From the NCBI RefSeq assembly GCF_025370785.1, contig NZ_JAMXFA010000040.1, positions 1-60,897 of the forward strand: 60,897 nt of DNA, given 5' to 3'. The position numbers were made by a program, and so were the translations under genes. This DNA comes from Laspinema olomoucense D3b. GTDB lineage: Bacteria; Cyanobacteriota; Cyanobacteriia; Cyanobacteriales; Laspinemataceae. The notes under the pieces were generated by a model that was not told where the DNA came from, searched no databases, and saw nothing but the letters and a program-made list of their open reading frames with translations. Shown here in pieces: positions 45,640 through 49,543 of this stretch (positions are counted from its first letter, which is position 1; each line of letters begins with the position of its first letter).

Positions 45640-45660
45640 ATTAACTGGACAATTCATCTA

Positions 45661-45693
45661 AAAAAGGCGCACAATTAGATTGTGCGCCTTTTT
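45661..45693 (+). terminator. Perfect 15-bp terminator after the protease operon
   Basis: AAAAAGGCGCACAAT (45661-45675) and ATTGTGCGCCTTTTT (45679-45693) form a perfect stem with the loop TAG and a terminal T5. Confidence 0.9.
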
Positions 45694-45710
45694 CATCGAT
45701 TTCAGGCAGA

Positions 45711-45874
45711 AGAAACCCGGTTTCTGACCCAGATTTACGATAATAACCAGAAATTTTGTAAAGAAACCCGGTTTCTAACGCCAGGGGTACACCGTCACCG
45801 GCGCAAGAAACCGGGTTTCTGACCCAGATTTACGATAATAACCAGAAATTTTGTAAAGAAACCCAGTTTCTAAC
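45711..45874. repeat. Two near-identical 69-bp repeats with AGAAACC(C/G)GGTTTCT palindromes
   Basis: Copies at 45711-45779 and 45806-45874 differ at about two positions. Each is bracketed by a 15-nt near-palindrome AGAAACC(C/G)GGTTTCT, the right-hand one of copy 2 degenerate (CCCAG). The interior contains TTTACGATAATAACCAG. Similar palindromes are common intergenic repeats in Oscillatoriales. Confidence 0.9.
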
Positions 45875-45916
45875 ACCTGGGTTACCCTCGGACTAGGGTG
45901 GGTCAAAAATTTTGAG

Positions 45917-45968
45917 AAAAAAAAACCGGCTCAAAAGAGCCGGGAAACGTCAATCAGGGTGCATCTAC
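45917..45968 (-). ncRNA. NsiR1-like small RNA unit A
   Basis: On the minus strand the element GGTAGATGCACCCTGATTG (plus 45951-45969) is followed by a hairpin (CCGGCTC/GAGCCGG, plus 45926-45943) and nine T residues (plus 45917-45925), an ideal intrinsic terminator. A TCCGGA box lies 31 nt upstream of TAGATGCAC; with that box centred at -35 the transcript would start near 45967 and be about 51 nt. This layout is shared with units B and C. No ORF is present. Identification as NsiR1-like rests on tandem organisation upstream and antisense of hetF plus the TCCGGA box; a length and sequence match to Nostoc NsiR1 was not checked. Confidence 0.72.
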
Positions 45969-45998
45969 CTTTGCTTTCTTCTGGAAAGACTCCTGCAA

Positions 45999-46004
45999 TC
46001 CGGA
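45999..46004 (-). promoter_or_regulatory. TCCGGA (DIF1-like) box of small-RNA unit A
   Basis: An exact TCCGGA, the motif centred at -35 in HetR-dependent promoters of heterocystous cyanobacteria, lies upstream of unit A on the minus strand. The distance to its TAGATGCAC element is 31 nt. No clear -10 hexamer is seen, as is usual for that class. Confidence 0.55.
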
Positions 46005-46075
46005 AAATTATTGCTAAACTAGAGACTAAGCAGGCACAAATCGAACCTGCGCCATCAGGCTGTCACTACATTTGC

Positions 46076-46112
46076 AAGGGAGAGGAAACGTCAATTAGGG
46101 TGCGTTCCTCTC
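46076..46112 (-). repeat. Degenerate small-RNA copy (A')
   Basis: The minus-strand sequence GCACCCTAATTGACGTTTCC matches GCACCCTGATTGACGTTTCC of unit A except at one position. It is embedded in a GGAGAGGAA/TTCCTCTCC hairpin. The U-tract and the upstream TCCGGA box are lost, so this looks like a decayed copy. Confidence 0.6.
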
Positions 46113-46140
46113 CGGCCCATCGGGTTCTGTTATGTGTCTG

Positions 46141-46197
46141 TCCCGTCAATCAGGGGAAGGGATTCGGCTTTCAGGAGCGATTCAGCGGTGCATCTGA
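46141..46197 (-). repeat. Degenerate small-RNA copy (A'')
   Basis: Plus-strand CGTCAATCAGGGG (46144-46156) and GGTGCATCTG (46187-46196) repeat the two halves of the conserved element but are 30 bp apart, without terminator or TCCGGA box at the proper distance. Confidence 0.45.
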
Positions 46198-46236
46198 AGG
46201 ATCCCCATCCGGGCGATCGCTCCTCCACAAACCATT

Positions 46237-46288
46237 AAAAAAATCCCTAGCTCCTAACAACTAGGGATCGACTTTTGAGTGCATCTAT
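46237..46288 (-). ncRNA. NsiR1-like small RNA unit B
   Basis: On the minus strand TATAGATGCACTC (plus 46277-46289) is followed by the hairpin CTAGGGAT-type stem (plus 46243-46250 with 46261-46268, 8 bp, 10-nt loop) and a T7 run (plus 46237-46243). A TCCGGT (one mismatch to TCCGGA) lies 30 nt upstream of TAGATGCAC. The predicted start near 46286 gives about 50 nt, the same as units A and C. The terminator stem is unrelated in sequence to those of A and C while the 5' element is conserved, suggesting selection on the 5' element. Confidence 0.65.
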
Positions 46289-46317
46289 ACTTGCTCTTTC
46301 TCCTATTTTTCAGCTTA

Positions 46318-46323
46318 ACCGGA
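46318..46323 (-). promoter_or_regulatory. TCCGGT (near-DIF1) box of small-RNA unit B
   Basis: On the minus strand this reads TCCGGT, five of six matches to the DIF1 motif. It occupies the same position relative to the conserved 5' element (30 nt) as the exact boxes of units A and C. Confidence 0.4.
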
Positions 46324-46479
46324 TCAAGGGAAAGGATATCTGTAACCCGTTTAATATTGATTGGGGTTGAAGGCTTGAGGTAAACAGTCCGCAATTTGAG
46401 CGGGCTGATTCTCTCTTTGTTTTAAGCCGATCGCACCGGGGAATGTCTCAATAGTCAGCAACTTAATGGCCAAAAGCTT

Positions 46480-46532
46480 AAAAAATTCCCGGCGTTTTGG
46501 TGCCGGGATATATCCATCAGGGTGCATCTACC
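46480..46532 (-). ncRNA. NsiR1-like small RNA unit C
   Basis: The minus strand shows GGTAGATGCACCCTGATGG (plus 46514-46532), then the hairpin TCCCGGC/GCCGGGA (plus 46487-46493 with 46502-46508) and a T6 run (plus 46480-46485). The first 16 bases of the conserved element are identical to unit A. TCCGGA at 46563-46568 lies 32 nt upstream of TAGATGCAC, placing the 5' end near 46531 and the length near 52 nt. It is the intact unit closest to hetF and is transcribed away from it. Confidence 0.72.
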
Positions 46533-46562
46533 ACTCTATTGTTCTCGATAGAGCTGATGCAT

Positions 46563-46568
46563 TCCGGA
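46563..46568 (-). promoter_or_regulatory. TCCGGA (DIF1-like) box of small-RNA unit C
   Basis: An exact TCCGGA lies 32 nt upstream of the TAGATGCAC element of unit C on the minus strand. The repeated spacing of about 31 nt in all three units argues against chance. Confidence 0.55.
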
Positions 46569-46690
46569 CAGTTGCCAGCATTTCCTCGGAAATTTTTTGC
46601 AGTGCTTGTTTAGGGGGTTAACAGCCAATTTTGATTGGAGAATGAAAAAGTTTCTTGCGTCGGGTAACTTTTCCAGAGCCGGTTCGTCTA

Positions 46691-46696
46691 TCCGGA
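46691..46696 (+). promoter_or_regulatory. TCCGGA box between the array and hetF
   Basis: A fourth TCCGGA has no intact small-RNA unit at the expected distance on the minus strand. Being palindromic, it could serve hetF on the plus strand, 265 bp upstream of the hetF start. A TATACT follows 7 bp later, closer than normal promoter spacing. Confidence 0.3.
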
Positions 46697-46737
46697 AAGA
46701 CTCTATACTAACATTCCTCTAACTCGGGGAAAAAGTT

Positions 46738-46752
46738 GAGGGTTCATCTATA
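46738..46752 (-). repeat. Degenerate small-RNA 5' element (D)
   Basis: Plus-strand GAGGGTTCATCTATA matches CAGGGTGCATCTACC of units A and C at 11 of 15 positions. There is no hairpin/U-tract downstream and no TCCGGA at +30 on the minus strand, so it appears to be a relic inside the hetF leader region. Confidence 0.45.
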
Positions 46753-46884
46753 AAGTTACGATTTAAACAGGGGATAAACTGAGGGAAAGGAAACCGGGAA
46801 ACTGAGCAAATATCTGGCGATTTCTTGTAAAATTTTCTAGCCAGTTATCCACTTTATCCCCTTAAAAGTAGAGTTAAAAATAAA

Positions 46885-46919
46885 GGGGGCCAGCCTCAAC
46901 CTAACCGCAGGTCAGCCCC
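46885..46919 (-). terminator. Hairpin in the hetF leader, terminator-like on the opposite strand
   Basis: GGGGC (46886-46890) pairs with GCCCC (46915-46919), extended by an inner CCT/AGG. On the minus strand the hairpin is followed by CTTTATTTTT, so it could end a transcript antisense to the hetF start. On the plus strand it lies 25 nt upstream of the hetF Shine-Dalgarno and could affect translation. Confidence 0.4.
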
Positions 46920-46942
46920 AAAGATTAAATATAAACAGTGAG

Positions 46943-46953
46943 CAGGAGTGCAG
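46943..46953 (+). promoter_or_regulatory. hetF ribosome binding site complementary to the small-RNA 5' element
   Basis: AGGAG (46944-46948) precedes the GTG start at 46961 by 12 nt. The surrounding CAGGAGTGCA is complementary to UGCACCCUG of small RNAs A and C (nine pairs with one bulged A). Its GAGTGCA is perfectly complementary to UGCACUC of small RNA B. Binding would cover the Shine-Dalgarno. Confidence 0.5.
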
Positions 46954-46960
46954 TGAAACT

Positions 46961-49543
46961 GTGAGCCAGAAATTTGAAGAATTACATATTTCTGTAACCC
47001 CAGTTGGGGACGATAAGTATCTGGTACGGACCGAACAAGCACCAAAAGGTGTGCTACCGGCTGAGGAACAAGTTGTCTGGCCGGTAGAGGGATGGTTGAG
47101 CCAAGCTACTAAGCTGATGGAAGATCCTTTATTGATGTTGATGCGCTTAAATGATCAACCCCATTCTTCCTCGGACTCCCCAAGGGGCAATTCAGAACGG
47201 ATTACGTTAGGAAACTTAGTAGAACTGGGTCAGGAACTGTATCAGGCGTTGTTTCAAGGCAGCTTACTCGATCGCCTGACTTCGGCCCAAGCGATCGCCC
47301 ATAACCAAGGGAATGTGCTGCGATTACGCCTGGGACTTAAAGGCCCTCACCTGCCTCGTTTACCTTGGGAGGTGATTCATGAAGATACCCGGGCGATCGC
47401 CACGGGGAAAGACCTGGTATTCTCCCGCTATCAACCCACCCTCGCCCCCGTCGCCCTCCCCGGAAATACGGGAGATCGGGTTAAAATTTTAATGGTTTTG
47501 GCTGCACCGACAGACCGAGAAAATCTCGCCCTGAAACGGGAAGCGGTTCACCTCCAGGAAGACCTCAAAGCGCGGTGGCGTAGTGGCACTCCCGTCACCG
47601 GCAAACCCCCACAAATCCAACTGGATATCCTGGAACAACCTAACCGAGAAGAACTCACCCGCGCCTTAGAACAAAATCATTACCAAGTCTTACATTACTC
47701 CGGCCATAGCGATGTGGGTGCCGGTGGCGGTGAACTGTATCTCGTCAACCGGAAAACCGGCTTAAGCGAAGTTCTCACGGGCAATGACCTCGCCGGATTG
47801 TTAGTCAATGCCGGAATTCGTATGGCCGTCTTTAACTCCTGTCGCGGGGCCTATACTGCCAGTTCTGACCCCACCGATGCCACCGGCAGACGGTCTCTAG
47901 CCGAGGTCCTGGTCAAGCGGGGTGTCCCTGGGGTTCTGGCAATGGCGGAACGGATTACCGATGATGTGGCCTTGACCCTGACCCGGTTATTTTATTACAA
48001 CATCAAACAAGGTTATCCCGTAGACCTCAGCCTGAATCGCGCTAGACAGGGGTTGATGTCGGCTTATGGTTCTCACGAACTCTACTGGGCACTGCCGGTG
48101 CTGTATCTCCATCCGGAATTTGATGGATATCTCACATCAAACCCAGAAACCACCGGGAATCCGCGCACCACGGTGGGCGATCGCCCCCTTCCCCGTCAAA
48201 CTTCCCCGATTCCCCAGGAAATCGCTGCTGCCAGTTCCCTAGCCGCCTTCTCCCCTCCGAGCAATTCTCACACCCGCGAGGCGATCGATTTCAGCACCAT
48301 CCCCCCCTCCCGCACGGGAACAATAACGGTGCCCAACGCTTTTGCCGAGGATGAGGCCGAGTTGTTCGATGAGGGAGACCTGGAAGGGGTATATGAAGAT
48401 ATCATGTATGACGAACTCGATGAGGATGAGGCCGTCTCCGTGGTGTCGGAGTTGTTCCGAGAAATGGTAGGTGAGACGGACCCCGAAGCTGATGCGGTGC
48501 ATCGTCAGAACAGCCAAGTCCAAAAGGCGTTTGATATCCTCGAAGAAACGCTCACGGAGGAGGAATTACCCCCAACCGCTAAGATTCCCCCTTACACCGC
48601 CGAAAATTGGCCGTTACCGGCAACGGATGCGCCTCTGAGTCAACCCCCACGGCATAAGACGTTAAGCGCCGTCAAATCTTTTGGGTATAAATGGCGTGTG
48701 GCGATCGGCGCAGCCGTGGCGATCGCCATTGCCGGGGCCGGATTCTGGACCGGGCAAACTCGCTTTTCCGCCACCACTCCAGGACCGGGGGCCGTATTTC
48801 CCCCCACGGCTTCGATCGCCGTGGAGTCTCCTTTATCTCCTGGCAATCAGGCCAATTTTAGTCAATTACAAACCCCAGAAGTGGGTAAATTAGCCTTTGC
48901 TTATTTTAACGAAGGGGATGCGATCGCCGGTCAAAAAGCGGTTGAAGAACTCCTCCAACCCCAACGCAGCGCCCTCAATTATGCCGAAGCGGTCCTCAGT
49001 GGCGTTCCCGAACCTCATAAATTTGACTCCAGCATCACCTTCTTATGGGGTCGCCTCGCGTGGCAAGCGGTGCTCTCGGGCAATCCTAAATATAGTTTGG
49101 ATGATGTGCGCCGCTATTGGACTCGCGCTGTCCAACAAGAACCCAATAATCCCACCTACTACAATGCTCTAGGATTTGCCTACTACGCCGATGGCAACTT
49201 CAAAAAAGCCGAAGATGCTTGGATGGAATCGTTAAAAATACTCGAAAAAATGCCTGTAATGGGGGCAAAAAATTCCACCACTCCAGAAACTGCTCCCCTG
49301 GAAAGTTATGATGCACTCACAGCCTATGCGGGATTTTCCCTAGTTCTGAGTCGTTCTGCATCGGACTTACCCCCAGGCGATCGGGCTCAAGTCCTGAGTA
49401 AAGCGATTAAACTGCGCAAAATCGTCCTCAACGCCGATCCCTTGGGTTTCCAACCCGACGCCCTAGCAACCGACTGGATGTGGCCCGAATCCGCCCTAGA
49501 AGATTGGCGATCGCTCCTCATGACGCCAGAGCAATCCCCATAG
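46961..49543 (+). CDS. hetF: HetF-like CHAT-domain (caspase-fold) membrane protein
   Basis: HetF (860 aa) is the founding member of the CHAT protease family (Caspase HetF Associated with TPRs). In Nostoc it is required for heterocyst differentiation and affects cell division. The N-terminal ~160 residues (LHISVTPVG, YLVRTEQAPKGVLPAEEQVVWPVE) match HetF specifically. The caspase-like domain (about 170-390) keeps the catalytic His region LHYSGHSD (245-251) and Cys294 in FNSCRGAY. An acidic linker leads to one transmembrane helix (about 577-598), then a C-terminal domain with a TPR-like unit (about 730-763). The start is GTG with AGGAG 12 nt upstream. The opposite-strand small-RNA array lies directly upstream. 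Confidence 0.9.
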   Translation: MSQKFEELHISVTPVGDDKYLVRTEQAPKGVLPAEEQVVWPVEGWLSQATKLMEDPLLMLMRLNDQPHSSSDSPRGNSERITLGNLVELGQELYQALFQGSLLDRLTSAQAIAHNQGNVLRLRLGLKGPHLPRLPWEVIHEDTRAIATGKDLVFSRYQPTLAPVALPGNTGDRVKILMVLAAPTDRENLALKREAVHLQEDLKARWRSGTPVTGKPPQIQLDILEQPNREELTRALEQNHYQVLHYSGHSDVGAGGGELYLVNRKTGLSEVLTGNDLAGLLVNAGIRMAVFNSCRGAYTASSDPTDATGRRSLAEVLVKRGVPGVLAMAERITDDVALTLTRLFYYNIKQGYPVDLSLNRARQGLMSAYGSHELYWALPVLYLHPEFDGYLTSNPETTGNPRTTVGDRPLPRQTSPIPQEIAAASSLAAFSPPSNSHTREAIDFSTIPPSRTGTITVPNAFAEDEAELFDEGDLEGVYEDIMYDELDEDEAVSVVSELFREMVGETDPEADAVHRQNSQVQKAFDILEETLTEEELPPTAKIPPYTAENWPLPATDAPLSQPPRHKTLSAVKSFGYKWRVAIGAAVAIAIAGAGFWTGQTRFSATTPGPGAVFPPTASIAVESPLSPGNQANFSQLQTPEVGKLAFAYFNEGDAIAGQKAVEELLQPQRSALNYAEAVLSGVPEPHKFDSSITFLWGRLAWQAVLSGNPKYSLDDVRRYWTRAVQQEPNNPTYYNALGFAYYADGNFKKAEDAWMESLKILEKMPVMGAKNSTTPETAPLESYDALTAYAGFSLVLSRSASDLPPGDRAQVLSKAIKLRKIVLNADPLGFQPDALATDWMWPESALEDWRSLLMTPEQSP

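Follow-up and report, generated by a model that had tools for sequence, protein, structure and literature searches.

Three NsiR1-type units lie opposite and upstream of a hetF-like gene

The window (the whole 60,897-nt stretch of Laspinema olomoucense D3b DNA that was analysed) contains an array of three minus-strand units within 45917-46568, located upstream of a hetF-like gene that is encoded on the opposite strand (Table 1). In units A, B and C alike, the terminator search identified a terminator-like hairpin followed by a T-run; over 45640-47000, nine such sites were found on the two strands compared to 1.7 +/- 1.6 in shuffles, and the fold z-scores of units A, B and C were -2.6, -3.1 and -1.8, respectively. 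Neighbouring units are spaced by about 240 and 320 nt. The pattern TCCGG N26-38 TAGATGCAC has three exact matches in the 60.9-kb window, all on the minus strand (45959-46004, 46279-46323 and 46522-46568), compared to a mean of 0.01, and never three, in 100 dinucleotide shuffles. The spacing between box and GTAGATG in units A and C is inside the distribution over the units fetched from other loci (see below) and, with the transcript ends inferred from the sequence, the RNAs would be about 51 nt (unit A) and about 52-53 nt (unit C). In unit B, the 5' element is altered in that CACTCAAAA replaces CACCCTGAT.

Table 1. Features of the array and the adjacent gene (positions in the window)
Feature	Position	Strand	Details
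Unit A, NsiR1 RNA	45918-45968 (Rfam match 45918-45970)	minus	Rfam RF02399 44.7 bits; hairpin, T9
DIF1 box TCCGGA, unit A	45999-46004	minus	36 nt before G of GTAGATG
F, hairpin GAGAGGAACG..CGTTTCCTCTC, loop region CACCCTAATTGA	46065-46103	minus	37/39 columns invariant
E, degenerate AGATGCACC stretch between A and B	about 46140-46200	minus	45/61 columns invariant
Unit B, divergent NsiR1 ATAGATGCACTCAAAAG	about 46236-46289	minus	Rfam 27.3 bits, below cut-off; hairpin, T7
DIF1-like box TCCGGT, unit B	46318-46323	minus	identical across all 8 aligned genomes
Unit C, NsiR1 RNA	46480-46532 (Rfam match 46479-46533)	minus	Rfam RF02399 46.7 bits; 5' element GGTAGATGCACCCTGAT, hairpin, T6
DIF1 box TCCGGA, unit C	46563-46568	minus	start 37 nt before G of GTAGATG
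D, unit remnant closest to hetF, TATAGATGAACCC	46712-46755	minus	no T-run, no TCCGGA in place
hetF-like gene, CHAT-domain protein, 860 aa	46961-49543	plus	Pfam CHAT; NCBIfam NF045509

Units C and A both exceed the Rfam cut-off for NsiR1 (RF02399; 39 bits), and we conclude by this curated covariance model that they are NsiR1. Unit B scores below the cut-off (E 0.007 in a search of 1.5 kb) and is therefore treated merely as a divergent unit of the array; that it is an NsiR1 member is likely, and rests on its position, its plan and its conservation. Because unit B is kept in the genus (47 of 52 columns; see below), it looks divergent and not decaying.

The only NCBIfam match of the neighbouring protein is NF045509 ("cell division protein HetF"), in which residues 6-855 of 860 are aligned at 770.6 bits; the curated cut-off of 1200 is not reached. 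Based on the full-length match and the locus, the gene is termed HetF-like. Unit C is located some 430 nt before hetF and is possibly outside the hetF mRNA; in Nostoc, the hetF start site is at -256 (PMC8406250). The hetF start site in the D3b genome is unknown and, therefore, an antisense overlap with the hetF mRNA has not been shown.

An earlier reading made from the sequence alone (the sequence-only reading) had described three minus-strand units at these places, with TCCGGA exact in A and C, TCCGGT in B, and a hairpin and a T-run in each, and all of this held, the last by terminator search and folding. Its claim of three intact units held in part, being too strong for unit B with its changed 5' element and score below the cut-off, and its inventory was incomplete in that the remnants D and E and the conserved hairpin F are also present in the stretch. 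NsiR1 identity, which it had proposed to check with a covariance model, was confirmed for A and C, B being below the cut-off; hetF identity is supported over the full length of the protein, yet at a score short of the cut-off. Finally, of its description of the array as antisense to hetF, the opposite and upstream placement holds; an overlap with the mRNA was not shown.

The host genome encodes HetR and has no NifH above cut-off

The D3b genome (completeness 99.99%) encodes HetR (NF009718, 582.7 bits, cut-off 489; also PF03574). No NifH above cut-off was detected, the best match to TIGR01287 reaching 220 bits compared to a cut-off of 394. Among 22 genomes tested with TIGR01287, four were above the cut-off, all of family f33, while the fifth f33 genome (G234) had partial matches only; we take f33 to be Nostocaceae, based on NifH in four of five f33 genomes tested and on their hetF arrays. 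Thus, NsiR1, HetR and HetF-like parts occur together in D3b without NifH above cut-off, and for lack of such a NifH we infer that the array in D3b does not serve nitrogen fixation. Laspinema is not known to make heterocysts.

The RNA units are more constrained than their surroundings

The hetF upstream region was aligned from eight genomes of the same genus. The loci of Laspinema palackyanum D2a, Laspinema sp. D2d, Oscillatoria sp. HE19RPO and the MAG Oscillatoria sp. S11.Bin022 are colinear with the D3b regions, mostly at 87-95% nucleotide identity and, therefore, the genus of the eight genomes is Laspinema in a wide sense. Invariant columns amounted to 51 of 51 in unit A, 52 of 53 in unit C and 47 of 52 in unit B, compared to 65-76% in the spacers of the array and 86% in the first 297 bases of hetF. 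We conclude that the RNA units, hairpins included, are more constrained than their surroundings. By contrast, the promoter stretches (35-38 nt each), taken as a whole, are barely more conserved than the spacers, with 71-84% of their columns invariant. The altered element of unit B and its TCCGGT box are retained in all eight genomes.

The remnants D (32/44 columns) and E are conserved no better than the spacers. The plus strand of D, GGGTTCATCTATA, is kept in seven of the eight genomes (L044 has GGGCACATCTATA) and can pair, at the cost of a single mismatch, with the 5' element of NsiR1. Shuffles gave equally good duplexes with D in 6/300 cases for unit A, 35/300 for unit C and 28/300 for a copy with a HetR-type box; as these duplexes just moderately beat shuffles, D as a kept target site for NsiR1 copies in the hetF leader was set aside as no more than a possibility.

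Hairpin F folds at -13.4 kcal/mol on the minus strand (z -1.9; z -0.3 on the plus strand). Its loop region resembles the NsiR1 5' element, and the plus strand of F could pair with NsiR1. F could be a sponge, a remnant or a separate RNA, and this remains undecided.

Downstream of unit A, at 45700-45880, there are repeated AGAAACCCGGTTTCT-like palindromes. One aligned sequence (L045) stops near 45851, and conservation to the left of there, these palindromes included, cannot be judged.

NsiR1 is present opposite hetF in most loci of relatives

A relative of the HetF-like protein was found in 180 genomes; the hetF loci of the 30 best matches were fetched, and 28 of these loci have more than 600 nt upstream. 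An opposite-strand NsiR1 with a T-run was detected in 24 of the 28, i.e. in 8/8 of the window's genus and 16/20 elsewhere, and also in one of the two loci with short upstream sequence. In G037, G060, G056 and G233, no antisense NsiR1 was found within 1.5 kb at hetF; units may lie beyond. Intact hetF-linked units in relatives are preceded by TCCGGA or a variant close to it (TCCGGT, TCCTGA), and none of those in the loci read has the GGGGTNNNACCCC palindrome.

NsiR1 forms a dispersed family with two promoter types

In the D3b genome, 12 NsiR1 matches at E<=0.01 were found on six contigs, six of them over the cut-off, and nine of the 12 lie away from the hetF array. An Rfam search at E<=10 gave matches in 13 of 14 control genomes too, none over the cut-off and, therefore, the matches at E<=0.01 alone were used. 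The TCCGGA type (or a near form) is present in the hetF units and in copies on contigs C44 (210184), C55 and C32, and the GGGGTNNNACCCC type in four copies on C44 (191048), C104 (two in tandem) and C34, which also have a TATATT-like box (TAATAT at C44).

Crystal structures show that HetR needs GGGN5CCC, and HetR binds GAGGGGTCTAACCCCTC at the Nostoc hetP promoter (PMC4192349). GGGGTNNNACCCC is the core of this hetP site and fits GGGN5CCC. Such a palindrome is found near the promoter of the four D3b copies outside the window, for which there are no HetR binding data; within the window, no GGGN5CCC palindrome precedes NsiR1.

Across 243 genomes of the order, GGGGTNNNACCCC is present 12-38 nt before AGATGCACC in 110 genomes, and TCCGGA 25-37 nt before AGATGCACC in 137, and the backwards patterns are present in none. 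The fetched loci contain 383 non-redundant units, of which 127 have TCCGGA, 163 the palindrome and none both; the other 93 are one mismatch from TCCGGA (62; for a 6-mer, some such matches are expected by chance), one mismatch from the palindrome (20) or neither (11). Because the 383 units are mostly from loci fetched by box patterns, these shares are not prevalences. TCCGGA starts 37 nt before the G of GTAGATG in 99 of 127 units and the 13-base palindrome 41 nt before it in 91 of 163, with a further 25 at 33-36 nt. Thus, both boxes centre near -35 in most units, and in some palindrome units the centre is closer, at about -27 to -30.

The search patterns fixed AGATGCA, and mostly CC, of the 5' element. 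AGATGCACCCTGAT was found in 163/163 palindrome units and 96/127 TCCGGA units, a count that is informative for the last five bases only, the rest being fixed by the searches. A GAGAG..CTCTC hairpin is present in 90/163 palindrome units and 0/127 TCCGGA units, and marks a separate subfamily. In 97 aligned units, the 5' element is common and the hairpins differ; these units were picked for unlike hairpins, AGATGCA being fixed by the search and, therefore, the hairpin diversity there is by choice. Consensus structure prediction on the MAFFT alignment of the 97 units returned no pairs, since the hairpins were not structurally aligned, and we make no claim of covariation. The sequence-only reading had argued that selection acts on the 5' element; this held in part, in that the element is common to units with unlike hairpins, but within the genus the hairpins are equally conserved.

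A search of named genomes returned the palindrome form in at least 115 stretches, and all 115 titles are cyanobacterial. They include Moorena, Symploca, Microcoleus, Okeania, Leptolyngbya, Phormidesmis, Spirulina and Limnothrix as well as the heterocystous Scytonema, Brasilonema and Dolichospermum.

A home-made stem test, which 367 of the 383 units pass, was discarded because 272 of 383 shuffled controls pass too. A coding peptide in the 5' element (ATGCACCCTGAT...) was rejected by eye because the later codons hold neither frame nor stop across units. A mobile repeat is not favoured because the copies occupy conserved loci.

Two further observations concern copy number and neighbours. Three genomes of family f14 (G160, G084 and G185) have 30, 24 and 22 TCCGGA-type matches, respectively, many of them in tandem. 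On D3b contig C55 (L076:8949-9260), two NsiR1 copies lie upstream of argZ (arginine dihydrolase/ornithine cyclodeaminase) in the same direction, an arrangement not found in the other loci read. As to further conserved neighbours of NsiR1, ArgZ, pyruvate kinase, DUF4335, a TPR protein and the neighbours at C32 and C44:191048 were each found in 0-5 loci. Hence only hetF and cobM emerged as conserved partners; because the fetched loci reach only 1.5-8 kb, other conserved pairs are not excluded.

A second conserved NsiR1 locus lies upstream of cobM

The D3b copy at C44:210184 (L074:8184-10142) has lgt (TIGR00544, 258.6 bits, cut-off 118.9) on one side and cobM, encoding precorrin-4 methyltransferase (TIGR01465, 329.7 bits, cut-off 259.65), on the other; it is in antisense orientation immediately upstream of cobM, and CCTGG forms the end of its 5' element. 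A similar pattern, GTAGATGCACCCTGGTTNNGC, was found in 53 of 243 genomes (none for the backwards pattern), including 17/17 f33 genomes and five without HetR; the D3b copy differs from it at the end, and D3b is outside the 53 genomes. For 45 of these 53 genomes a locus was read, 30 as returned by the search and 15 selected from further places. In 39 of these 45 loci, a unit is antisense and at most 700 nt upstream of cobM; of the other six, one is cut by the contig end (L321), four have lgt without cobM (L331, L339, L341 and L355) and in one the unit is 956 nt away (L338). Some cobM loci contain up to five tandem NsiR1 copies. In total, the cobM-linked NsiR1 locus is conserved in many families, f33 included.

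TCAGGGTGCAT, which is complementary to the NsiR1 5' element, occurs at five places outside NsiR1 genes in D3b and, read backwards, at none; 3.3 occurrences are expected for a random 11-mer in this genome. Three of the five places are conserved in one relative. The candidate trans targets obtained in this way are near chance and are leads only; no strong target emerged. One TCAGGGTGCAT place (C44:268601, L299) precedes by about 170 nt the ATG of a gene that we take to be ferredoxin-like, by eye from its CGGRGLCATC motif; TCAGGGTGCAT is at the same place in G113 (L312).

NsiR1 and its palindrome form co-occur with HetR

NsiR1, called at E<=1e-4 in the 243 genomes, was detected in 154 genomes and 21 of 33 families (families counted by hand), and HetR (PF03574) in 137 genomes. 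NsiR1 is present in 135 of the 137 genomes with HetR and in 19 of the 106 without. For the palindrome form, the corresponding numbers are 107/137 and 3/106, and for the TCCGGA form 130/137 and 7/106, three of these seven lacking an Rfam match. At the family level, NsiR1 is present in 18/18 families with HetR and 3/15 without (p 1e-6). The genomes are related, and no tree-based test of the association with HetR was made. The sequence-only reading had proposed that the hetF/small-RNA module extends beyond heterocyst development, which is supported by the lack of NifH above cut-off in D3b, by the 154/243 genomes with NsiR1 and by the 24/28 hetF loci; the presence of the unit in close relatives, which it had asked about, was found at 8/8 same-genus loci.

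In the 19 genomes with NsiR1 and without PF03574, tblastn with D3b HetR as query did not detect HetR, while D3b itself was matched. The units read from these genomes mostly have altered boxes (TCCCGAT, TCCTGAT, ACCGGA, GCGGAA) and no palindrome. Exceptions among HetR-less genomes are G008, G144 and G198, which retain the palindrome form (G144 and G198 also have TCCGGA copies), and G031 and G054 with one TCCGGA copy each; G008 (99% complete) combines four HetR-type boxes with a lack of detectable HetR. Conversely, G029 and G053 encode HetR and lack NsiR1 at E<=1e-4. The palindrome form is present in only 5/17 HetR genomes of f33 vs 102/120 elsewhere (p 5e-6), and f33 thus leans on the TCCGGA form.

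As a separate observation, the HetR-less genomes G090, G073 and G031 of family f31 (L264, L256 and L257) contain NsiR1 copies, several of which are tandemly arranged, and their boxes resemble TCCCGAT, TCCTGAT or ACCGGA. Where a best HetF match is listed for these genomes, it is partial.

A proposed HetR-linked role for NsiR1

We propose that the array consists of three NsiR1 genes belonging to an old, HetR-linked family of antisense and trans-acting small RNAs that was reused by heterocyst formers. We consider this reading more likely than not (probability about 0.6), with expression, HetR binding and targets being inferred. The membership of units A and C, the conservation, the placement at hetF, the co-occurrence with HetR and the existence of two promoter types, mostly centred near -35, are shown by sequence.

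In this scheme, each unit would have its own DIF1-type promoter and an intrinsic terminator, and give an RNA of about 51-53 nt; a Laspinema-like filament that lacks NifH would host a dispersed NsiR1 family, with the array as one of its loci. Active HetR, probably under nitrogen shortage, would act directly on the palindrome copies and via HetZ on the TCCGGA copies, turning on both. In Nostoc, DIF1 (TCCGGA) promoters depend on HetZ, and hetZ is under HetR control (PMC7377430). Copies acting in cis would pair with the leader of the gene opposite, and NsiR1 copies in general may pair in trans through the near-invariant 5' element. In Nostoc, hetF translation is repressed by NsiR1.1, a hetP-like mRNA is bound at its start region and repressed by NsiR1.4, and alr3234 has been shown to be a trans target (PMC9045159). 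By analogy, NsiR1 would lower translation of hetF and other targets, and may act on cobM and further mRNAs. HetF functions in cell division and CobM in vitamin B12 synthesis. HetR would thereby be linked to HetF-dependent cell division and not to nitrogen fixation, and heterocyst formers would have reused the HetR-NsiR1 circuit.

Several points speak against this proposal. In Nostoc, removal of the nsiR1.1 promoter had little effect on hetF expression in gfp fusions (PMC8406250), and a GGGN5CCC site upstream of hetR is dispensable for hetR regulation (PMC7377430) and, therefore, a box alone proves nothing. Moreover, the hetF start is unknown, there are no clear trans targets and no expression or HetR binding data for D3b, and the sign of the HetR effect is inferred. 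The weakly conserved promoter stretches, the modest pairing with D and the exceptions G008, G029 and G053 also count against it.

In a bolder reading, the pre-heterocyst job of HetR in multicellular cyanobacteria would have been to drive a dispersed NsiR1 regulon with interchangeable -35 elements, either a HetR operator or a HetZ-linked DIF1 box, in which hetF and cobM would be ancestral antisense targets, the paralogues that have an invariant 5' element and a GAGAG/CTCTC hairpin would act in trans, and lineages that lost HetR would mostly have lost the operators, while some kept the RNA. Taken jointly, we consider these statements as likely to be wrong as right.

Many filamentous cyanobacteria that never make heterocysts have HetR, and what role it plays in them is unanswered. 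Direct control of NsiR1 by HetR, if it exists in these organisms, would make that question testable, and the hetF and cobM loci are two concrete, long-conserved places at which to ask it; a hetR deletion exists in the non-heterocystous Leptolyngbya BL0902 (PMC11298460).

Alternative explanations

The array could be a relic of a heterocyst-forming ancestor that no longer matters in this lineage, as suggested by the apparent decay of units to the remnants D and E, by the lack of NifH above cut-off and by the loss of the consensus 5' element in unit B. However, units A and C are nearly invariant in the eight genomes while the spacers are at 65-76%, 21 of the order's 33 families have NsiR1, and the form with the HetR-type box is found in Leptolyngbya, Phormidesmis, Limnothrix and Spirulina records, i.e. 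outside heterocyst formers; we regard a relic as very unlikely. Better placed, and still unlikely, is the possibility that the RNAs are real and act on the neighbouring gene only (hetF, cobM), by antisense or promoter interference, with the 5' element being kept for stability or for a protein partner. Both conserved loci place NsiR1 antisense upstream of a gene start and no convincing trans targets were found, as this possibility would have it; but many copies lie away from hetF and cobM, AGATGCACCCTGAT is present in 163/163 units with the HetR-type box (with only the last five positions free), and in Nostoc the trans target alr3234 has been shown (PMC9045159).

Similarly, the GGGGTNNNACCCC box might serve another regulator, or HetR might repress through it. 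There are no binding data, the box covers the -35 region so that repression is as plausible as activation, three genomes without detectable HetR keep the box, and some box centres are at about -27 to -30. On the other hand, HetR is present in 107 of the 110 genomes with the box, and the box fits GGGN5CCC and the hetP operator (PMC4192349), which leaves this explanation improbable.

Comparison with known systems

That NsiR1 and HetR extend beyond heterocyst formers is partly in print already (PMC8400943, PMC7761841), and HetR has been described as predating heterocysts (PMC7761841). In the open-access literature searched, which leaves out most subscription papers, we found neither a HetR-type box at NsiR1 nor its co-occurrence with HetR described; similarly, NsiR1 at cobM is not reported in the open-access literature searched.

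Limnospira indica PCC 8005 is, as D3b, a non-heterocystous, non-diazotrophic filament with HetR, and its RNA162 is an NsiR1-like RNA of 57 nt (PMC8400943). RNA162 is a single RNA from an irradiation transcriptome, and the sections bearing on it describe no hetF array, promoter classes or other loci (PMC8400943). The Nostoc hetP operator GAGGGGTCTAACCCCTC and the palindrome boxes at NsiR1 share the core GGGGTNNNACCCC (PMC4192349); unlike the hetP operator, these boxes, for which binding data are lacking, precede small-RNA genes with their own terminators and are mostly centred near -35.

The closest known system is the NsiR1 array of Nostoc sp. PCC 7120, which like the D3b array has RNAs of 50-60 nt (in D3b inferred from sequence) with a GTAGATGCACCCTGAT-type 5' element and a terminator hairpin, individual DIF1 promoters and a placement antisense upstream of hetF. 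In Nostoc, NsiR1 is a nitrogen-stress RNA whose expression depends on HetR; D3b has a HetR gene. Unlike Nostoc, which has 12 copies upstream of hetF, D3b has three, one of them strongly divergent; moreover, D3b has no NifH above cut-off, and in four of its dispersed copies the palindrome replaces TCCGGA. Thus, the array in the window is, as shown for units A and C, a new member of the known NsiR1 family, and the survey suggests that NsiR1 and its link to HetR are older and broader than nitrogen-fixing heterocysts.
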